From the NCBI RefSeq assembly GCF_036840915.1, contig NZ_CP085725.1:1736001-1800000 (forward strand): a DNA stretch of 64,000 bases, written 5' to 3'. Under the pieces are notes generated by a model that was not told where the DNA came from, searched no databases, and saw nothing but the letters and a program-made list of their open reading frames with translations. Of the stretch, positions 14,469-24,585 are shown one piece after another; position 1 is the first letter of the stretch, and every line of letters begins with the position of its first letter. Source of the DNA: Flavobacterium hankyongi (lineage in GTDB: Bacteria > Bacteroidota > Bacteroidia > Flavobacteriales > Flavobacteriaceae). The translations under genes were made by a program, and so were the position numbers.

Positions 14469-14531
14469 TTCTCTGAATATAATTGCTCGTTAGACTAGTC
14501 AATCAGAAAAAAGTTACAAAAAAATAAACAA

Positions 14532-15839
14532 TTATTTTTCTAAAATCTTGATGATTTCTTTTACATTTTCTCCTCTATATATTATTTTACCATCCCTGTC
14601 AATTAAAAAATATGTCGGTAAAGATTTAATATTTAGGTTTTTGTTAATTTTTGTTTTAAAACTACCATGAAAATTTCCCCAACTAATATTGTATTTTTCA
14701 ATTGTTTGCTTTGCTTTTTCTATTGAAACATCGGTTGAAATACCAATCATATTTAATTTAGATTCATATTTTTCCTGCAATTGCTTTATTTCTGGAAACC
14801 TCTCAATACAAGGCCCACACCAACTGGCCCAAAAATCTATTAAAGTGTATTGCTTATCTTTTATTAACAAATCAGTATTTTTCACAATACCTTTAAAATC
14901 AATAATTTTAAAATTTTCAAGATAAGTACCTATATAATTTCCGTAATTTTTATCAAACTTCTTCAATTCACTCAAATACAATTTTGAAATTGAAGAGTTA
15001 ACACTATCAAATTTAAATTGTTGCTTATTAATTAAGATTGTATCACCTTTATAATATTGAAATTGACTCACAAAGCTATCATCTTGATGCTTAAAATCAA
15101 TTTCTTTGGGAATTATAAACAAACCACCTCTATTATTATCTATTCCTTGATAAAAAAAGGAAAACTTTTGATTATCAAAGTTTAATTTTCCCTCCCAAAA
15201 ATCAACATATTTGTATTTAAATGAAATTTTAGTTTCATTATTTTCGTGAATAACAGATGGATAAATTATTATTTTTCTGTGATATATTTTTATTTTTTTA
15301 TCTGAATAAATCTCATAAGAATAGTCCTGAATTTCAGATTTTTCTATCCTATCATCATCTTTACTGATTTTTGCTTTTATATCAAAAGTTTGCTTCAAAT
15401 TATCACCAAAATTTTTATTTCTATCTGTATCAGCTGTAATAAAAACATTTCCTTTTTGGTATTCAACCATTACAACAAATCCTTGACTAATTGACTTTTG
15501 AGATAACTCAAGAGTGTCAATCCTTCTTTTTTTACAATATTCTAAAAATTGAGCTTTATCATATTTTTTTTCTTTATACAAATCGAAAATGTATTGGCTA
15601 AAACTTTCAGATTTTAAATAAAAAAAAACTGAATCATTTTTAGAAATACCTTTATATTCATTATGAATTGTATTTGAAAATCCAGTGATTTCATCTACTA
15701 AATTCAATTCATAGCTCATTCTATTCATATGAAAAATATTTTTTTTTGGTCCAATTACTGGTTTCAAAATAATTTCATATGACATTTTATCTGATTGACA
15801 GAATAGAAGAAGTGATAAGCTAACAAATATTTTAAGCAT
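14532..15839 (-). CDS. TlpA-like thiol-disulfide lipoprotein
   Basis: A 435-residue protein in two parts. The first about 310 residues are a domain I do not recognise, preceded by a short signal with a probable lipobox (LLLFC, Cys14). The last about 120 are a thioredoxin fold of the TlpA/AhpC-TSA type with an intact redox motif, Cys341-Gly-Pro-Cys344 in DFWASWCGPC, and the cis-Pro segment KSLPTYFLIDRDG. It should act as a thiol-disulfide reductase in the envelope. It follows the small Cys-rich peptide gene by 39 bp without a visible promoter between, which suggests the two are linked. Confidence 0.85.
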   Translation of the reverse strand: MLKIFVSLSLLLFCQSDKMSYEIILKPVIGPKKNIFHMNRMSYELNLVDEITGFSNTIHNEYKGISKNDSVFFYLKSESFSQYIFDLYKEKKYDKAQFLEYCKKRRIDTLELSQKSISQGFVVMVEYQKGNVFITADTDRNKNFGDNLKQTFDIKAKISKDDDRIEKSEIQDYSYEIYSDKKIKIYHRKIIIYPSVIHENNETKISFKYKYVDFWEGKLNFDNQKFSFFYQGIDNNRGGLFIIPKEIDFKHQDDSFVSQFQYYKGDTILINKQQFKFDSVNSSISKLYLSELKKFDKNYGNYIGTYLENFKIIDFKGIVKNTDLLIKDKQYTLIDFWASWCGPCIERFPEIKQLQEKYESKLNMIGISTDVSIEKAKQTIEKYNISWGNFHGSFKTKINKNLNIKSLPTYFLIDRDGKIIYRGENVKEIIKILEK

Positions 15840-15878
15840 AACTTATTTATTGGGGATAAAAATTCTCCTCAATGTAAT

Positions 15879-16097
15879 CTATCTCCATTGACAGCTATTA
15901 AATGATGAATATGTTCCATCCGGATTTTTACAGGTTGTATTTGCACAATAAGAGTTTGTAGGACAATTTTTATCATTAGAACAATCGTCCTGAGGGCATT
16001 TTACAAGATTATTATTATTTAAGGCTCCTTTAATACTTTTTTGTTGTATCTTACTCAAGATAACAACACCTTCCAAATTTAAAATGTTTTTTTACAT
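15879..16097 (-). pseudogene. Cys-rich double-glycine-type leader peptide gene with a stop at codon 2
   Basis: From the ATG at 16097-16095 the second codon is TAA. Reading through it gives M-*-KNILNLEGVVILSKIQQKSIKGA, the form of bacteriocin-type leaders I recall from flavobacteria (usually MLKNIL... ending in GG). One T-to-A change in a TTA Leu codon would explain the stop. The GG cleavage site is GA here. The core contains six Cys (KCPQDDC, DKNC, SYC, TTC and SSFNSC). A complete promoter lies just upstream, placing the ATG about 20 nt from the likely transcript start. Translation could still begin at TTG 16076, so this is either decaying or a non-ATG-start peptide. A TlpA-like gene follows. 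Confidence 0.6.
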
Positions 16098-16123
16098 AAT
16101 TAAGATTTTTAATTTTTATTAAT

Positions 16124-16153
16124 CAAACATAATTCTTTTTAAAGACAAAACAA
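16124..16153 (-). promoter_or_regulatory. Bacteroidetes-type promoter of the Cys-rich peptide locus
   Basis: On the minus strand TATGTTTG (16131-16124) is the -7 element and TTG (16153-16151) the -33 element, with a 19-bp spacer. It directs transcription toward the ATG-TAA at 16097 and the TlpA-like gene. Confidence 0.65.
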
Positions 16154-16249
16154 TAACAATTTAGTTAATTTTGTAGAAAAATTCTTTCATTTAAAATTAT
16201 ACCTAATAAATGAAAATTATTTCAGAAATTTGAAAGTATATACACCGAC

Positions 16250-24406: not shown

Positions 24407-24407
24407 G

Positions 24408-24481
24408 AGCCGATGGAGGGACTCGAACCCACGACCTGCTGATTACAAATCAGCTGCTCTAGCCAGCTGAGCTACACCGGC
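24408..24481 (-). tRNA. tRNA-Thr (anticodon TGT), second copy in the transcript
   Basis: A 74-nt cloverleaf. The acceptor arm GCCGGTG pairs with CATCGGC, the anticodon arm GCTGA-TTTGTAA-TCAGC gives anticodon TGT (codon ACA), and the T-loop is GGTTCGAGTCC. CCA is not encoded. It is identical in sequence to the copy 30 nt upstream. Confidence 0.95.
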
Positions 24482-24511
24482 AAAAGTGTATTATTATTTT
24501 GAAAAAAATTG

Positions 24512-24585
24512 AGCCGATGGAGGGACTCGAACCCACGACCTGCTGATTACAAATCAGCTGCTCTAGCCAGCTGAGCTACACCGGC
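24512..24585 (-). tRNA. tRNA-Thr (anticodon TGT), first copy in the transcript
   Basis: The same 74-nt cloverleaf as at 24408-24481. It is promoter-proximal: the -7 element lies about 15 nt upstream of its 5' end. Confidence 0.95.

Follow-up and report, generated by a model that had tools for sequence, protein, structure and literature searches.

The peptide gene described here lies on the minus strand of the window (the whole stretch of DNA that was analyzed, 64,000 nucleotides), 39 nt upstream of an intact gene for a thioredoxin protein, with which it is probably co-transcribed (Table 1). Reading out the sequence confirmed what the initial annotation had described: an ATG at 16097, a TAA as codon 2 and, behind it, an open leader-type frame with a six-Cys core. 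This frame runs for 70 sense codons (KNILNLEGVVILSKIQQKSIKGA / LNNNNLVKCPQDDCSNDKNCPTNSYCANTTCKNPDGTYSSFNSCQWR) before it closes with a TAG. From composition alone, 70 open codons have a chance of 0.6-1%; the real proof of coding character comes, at the level of sequence comparison, from homology, that is from the match of the leader to a family profile and of the core to a peptide of F. terrisoli. The uninterrupted frame from the ATG that is expected of an MLKNIL-type precursor is broken by the TAA at codon 2, and for this reason we file the gene as a broken or altered copy.

Table 1. Positions of the features of the peptide-TlpA locus in the window.
Feature	Positions	Strand	Remarks
Peptide-TlpA insertion, approximate extent	14469..16208	.	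Between outer-membrane beta-barrel gene and DUF2721 gene; empty in relatives
Intact TlpA/ResA-like thioredoxin protein, 435 aa, WCGPC	14532..15839	-	Pfam Thioredoxin_8 5e-16
TAG stop closing the core frame	15879..15881	-	Read from sequence (15881-15879)
Six-Cys core	15882..16022	-	Homologous to F. terrisoli core; sub-threshold Pfam EB module
Leader region M*KNILNLEGVVILSKIQQKSIKGA, ending in GA double-glycine-like site	16023..16097	-	Profile score 55 bits
Possible alternative start TTG (codon 8), 18-residue leader MEGVVILSKIQQKSIKGA	16074..16076	-	A-3/A-12/A-13 context as at ATG
ATG start and immediate in-frame TAA	16092..16097	-	ATG 16097-16095, TAA 16094-16092; TTA at codon 2 in other leader genes
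Putative sigma-A promoter: TTG (16153-16151), N19, TATGTTTG (16131-16124)	16124..16153	-	Consensus from PMC6847099, PMC9723704

Upstream of the ATG, the spacing and the classical consensus of the putative promoter are as first described, and about 0.011 matches of this TTG-N19-TATGTTTG kind are expected per 60 nt at the composition of the window. To call the -33/-7 promoter 'perfect', however, overstated the match. Profiling in F. johnsoniae has since refined the consensus of this box to TAHHTTTG, in which positions -10 and -9 are hardly ever G (PMC6847099), and the window's box, which fits the classical TANNTTTG, departs from the revised form by a G at -9. The same TANNTTTG was absent from the 80 nt upstream of all 59 related leader genes. 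We rejected a second -7-like box, TAAATTTG at 16081, as a promoter for want of a -33 partner. Transcription would start at about 16118-16119, 4-5 nt past the -7 box, giving a 5'UTR of about 21-22 nt up to the ATG. Because this length differs little from the flavobacterial median of 24 nt (PMC9723704), ATG 16097 is best taken as the natural start, as had been proposed; its A-rich context points the same way.

The leader belongs to a family that is widespread in the genus, where we found dozens of precursors with MLKNILNLEG-type GG leaders. Of 60 different leader genes whose sequences we extracted, one (L122) belongs to the window genome, which left 59 from other Flavobacterium species for building a profile. 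Against this profile the window leader scores 55 bits; none of 2000 shuffled versions exceeded 6. This bears out the earlier call of a flavobacterial GG-type leader (MLKNILNLEG...GG). Three of the 59 leaders score lower; thus the window leader, near the low end of the range, is somewhat divergent but inside the family. Because the 59 were picked by a 20-nt motif that largely determines residues 1-7, independent evidence comes from residues 8-25 only, and the near invariance of residues 2-8 across the family is to be read with residues 2-7 selected by the search motif. Searched against NCBIfam, including NF047798 (leader_Chryseo), the window peptide found no match; NF047798 matched some other leader peptides of the window genome weakly, with at most 17.7 bits against a curated cut-off of 23.5. 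The window leader ends in GA, and the initial annotation had taken a change from GG to GA as fitting decay. This one of its two arguments does not hold: C39 peptidases cleave after GG, GA or GS (PMC10885120), and intact leaders of the same family also end in GA, GS or other pairs, so the GA ending is no sign of decay.

The codon-2 stop is another matter. A search of 400 Flavobacterium genomes with the motif ATGTNAAAAAAYATTTTAAA returned about 97 matches that were listed, and all but four of them carry TTA as the second codon. The window is one of the four; the remaining three, all TAA (G234, G122 and G134), do not continue into a leader when read on. Because the other leader genes carry TTA and the other TAA matches are non-leader sequence, the codon-2 stop is unique to the window among the matches listed, and derived. 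The comparison therefore upholds the proposed TTA-to-TAA nonsense change, and a stop conserved in frame across the family, which would have spoken for function, was found in none of the motif-bearing leader genes; we rejected that idea.

Within the window genome (one contig, 3.47 Mb), leader repeats were sought by sequence pattern. ATGTTAAAAAACATTTTAAA occurs four times exactly; allowing one mismatch adds two more leader genes, not counting the window's. The nearest paralogue, at C1:2972307, is identical to the window gene in 31 of the first 33 nt. A second leader gene of this genome, at C1:2262372 on the minus strand, is also broken, by an in-frame TAG (MLKNILNLEGA*ALSKNEQK); leaders with similar cores are open in other species (L091, L098). 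One of the 59 leader genes from other species is truncated. With two in-frame-stop leader genes here against one truncated gene of 59 elsewhere, loss of leader genes evidently occurs in this strain.

These two stops could in principle share a cause in the assembly, and the TAA lies a single base from the universal family codon, as would be expected if it were a sequencing or assembly error in an intact gene. We consider such an error improbable: the TAA reflects a substituted base rather than a miscounted homopolymer, the assembly consists of a single complete contig, and the flanking genes that were inspected are open.

The main rival to loss of the gene is translation from TTG 16076, directly or by re-initiation past the ATG-stop, with an 18-residue leader ending in GA. 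This start shares with ATG 16097 an A at each of -3, -12 and -13, and its leader retains the half that C39 domains read (L-12, I-4 and G-2) together with an ending that is an accepted C39 site (PMC10885120). The bacteroidetocins work with still shorter leaders of 15-16 residues (PMC6671954). TTG at codon 8 is also rare in the family (2 of 59) and could be compensatory. We nevertheless regard a functional TTG start as rather unlikely, because no relative uses a start of this type, residues 2-8 are nearly invariant in the family (with the reservation on residues 2-7 made above), and in F. johnsoniae a start codon that begins with U is a mark of poor translation (PMC6847099). Were it used, the gene would offer a natural test of the minimal C39 leader length and of non-ATG initiation in flavobacteria.

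Two further readings give the stop itself a function. In the first, the AUG-stop serves as a minimal regulatory ORF at which stalled ribosomes would control the peptide-TlpA mRNA, in the manner of the AUGUAA of plant NIP5;1, a proven stalling element in Arabidopsis (PMC11915504), and the ATG-TAA of the window does occupy a real-looking 5' position. Yet the ATG-stop is conserved in no other leader gene, the 5' end shows neither RNA structure beyond that of shuffles (z -0.27) nor a match in Rfam, and the codons past the ATG-TAA encode a family leader, so that no regulatory role is needed to account for the sequence. Regulation by the stop, raised as an alternative in the initial annotation, thus finds no support, and we hold it to be highly improbable. 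In the second, the ATG-TAA acts as a translational brake before a TTG-initiated precursor, which would be synthesized by re-initiation or near-cognate initiation; we give this idea just as little credence. If true, a bacterium would be using an AUG-stop switch to control a secreted disulfide peptide together with the partner TlpA.

Comparison of the core identifies a single clear homologue of the window's whole peptide, in F. terrisoli (MGNFKFIGTPLSRTEMRNVSGG followed by the core; L010, the same as L025). The two cores are 37% identical over 43 aa (E 2e-6) and share the same Cys framework, and the alignment beats all 2000 of 2000 shuffles in which the Cys residues were held fixed. Of the window genome's paralogue cores, four were tested and none matches as well. 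Because the leader of this sole clear homologue begins with MGNFKF (MGNFKF..VSGG), codon 2 is not comparable in a true orthologue. The Pfam EB module scores 20.8 bits on the window core (E 4e-4), below its gathering cut-off of 24.3. Beyond the window itself, the search for relatives yielded only G081, and a direct peptide search of 300 genus genomes at E 1e-6 returned the window alone. A profile of the core gave five weak matches in 400 family genomes; the one that was inspected (L019) falls within unrelated coding sequence. A plasmid collection gave no match to the core.

In G081, on a 7,492-bp contig (the same as L026), the core is fused in frame behind a C39 peptidase fragment. The fusion ORF (L011 941-1228; L026 4015-4305; L118, same contig) thus joins an N-terminal C39 peptidase part to a window-type Cys-rich core, and it possibly arose by an in-frame deletion. 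The contig is labelled as a Chryseobacterium gleum MAG, yet it is assigned to the window's genus in the genome set. Both core relatives, F. terrisoli and G081, have eight Cys, and the window core is without the fourth and the last. Their joint absence would fit a lost disulfide, on which view the fourth and eighth Cys of the F. terrisoli peptide are predicted to pair with each other.

The TlpA partner leads to a fuller version of the locus. Relatives of the TlpA protein occur in 5 of 299 other genus genomes (E 1e-25), and in two of the five a Cys-rich peptide is encoded just upstream. In F. terrisoli, a TlpA homologue of 33% identity directly follows the peptide gene within an operon (L025 5599-12312) of peptide, TlpA, VKOR/thioredoxin, C39 ABC transporter and HlyD; the transporter and HlyD were identified by their similarity to the copies annotated in the window genome. 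The stretch that was read contains no lanthionine enzymes, and the whole makes a compact candidate module for secretion and disulfide formation. In the library searched, we found no paper on a peptide-TlpA-VKOR-C39 module in Bacteroidetes.

In the window, the pair occupies a site that is empty in relatives. The beta-barrel and DUF2721 neighbors stand 310-365 bp apart in two of them (L041, L049), and in L033, which at 85% DNA identity was the closest relative found, the end of the hsp90 gene joins the 16209-side sequence within about 60 bp. A search for repeats marking the insertion ends gave weak AT-rich matches only. Elsewhere in the window, two tRNA-Thr (tgt) genes lie in tandem on the minus strand at 24407-24585.

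A C39 ABC transporter is encoded in the window genome at C1:2255382 (E 3.6e-32), in trans and not adjacent to the peptide gene. It lies in a class I lanthipeptide cluster at C1:2252-2264 kb (L062, L123) that comprises LanB and LanC (C1:2257-2261 kb), C39, HlyD, VKOR and several MLKNIL-type Cys-rich precursors. No lanthionine enzyme was found among the ORFs surrounding 15879-16097, which leaves the window peptide outside the lanthipeptides. Because C39, HlyD and VKOR are present in the same genome, the window gene could have been served in trans by this export machinery.

We consider it likely that the gene encodes a GG-leader disulfide peptide of the kind exported by C39 and oxidized by TlpA/VKOR, and that it has been silenced here by the nonsense change at codon 2. 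The locus would then be an orphan bacteriocin-like precursor gene beside a dedicated TlpA-like thiol oxidoreductase, and a fragment of the operon type seen in F. terrisoli. A functional copy would yield a leader that docks in the C39 domain and is cleaved after GG/GA, and a core that is exported and oxidized by TlpA/VKOR, possibly to serve an antagonistic role. With the nonsense codon, synthesis from the natural ATG is very probably abolished or much reduced. Since neither the remainder of the frame nor the TlpA gene is damaged, the change probably happened recently; an intact frame and an intact TlpA gene would, however, also be left by a functional non-ATG start, and the window leader scores low yet within the range of working leaders. 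The event itself is ordinary and befalls a known kind of gene; what is unusual is the pairing of peptide and TlpA and the presence of a second broken leader gene. Silencing by codon 2 would be a case in which loss of a bacteriocin-like precursor is documented in the nucleotide sequence itself: intact relatives provide the reference, and the genome contains a second example. The arrangement also suggests that a precursor and its TlpA partner can be encoded away from the transporter.

Among known systems, the gene is close to the Flavobacterial/Chryseobacterium 'bacteriocin-like' precursors of NF047798, with which it shares the MLKNILNLEG..LSxxEQKxIxGG form of the leader and a small Cys-rich core; it differs in its codon-2 stop, in standing alone with TlpA and in having its own promoter. 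With the class I lanthipeptide cluster of its own genome it has in common the MLKNIL leader, the C39 transporter, HlyD and VKOR, but the cluster has LanB and LanC where the window locus has no lanthionine enzyme. The bacteroidetocins, for which a class IIf was proposed and whose natural leaders have 15-16 residues (PMC6671954), resemble it in locus architecture, on which the comparison is based: a GG leader and a Cys-bearing core, with a C39 ABC transporter and a thiol oxidoreductase encoded at the same type of locus. Their two characterized members have four Cys, whereas the window core has six, and the leaders of the family keep to the shorter length given above; killing activity has been demonstrated for the bacteroidetocins, whereas the window peptide is a bacteriocin-like candidate. 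The F. terrisoli operon shares a homologous core with a TlpA homologue directly downstream, and differs in having eight Cys instead of six, another leader, a complete export operon and no stop.
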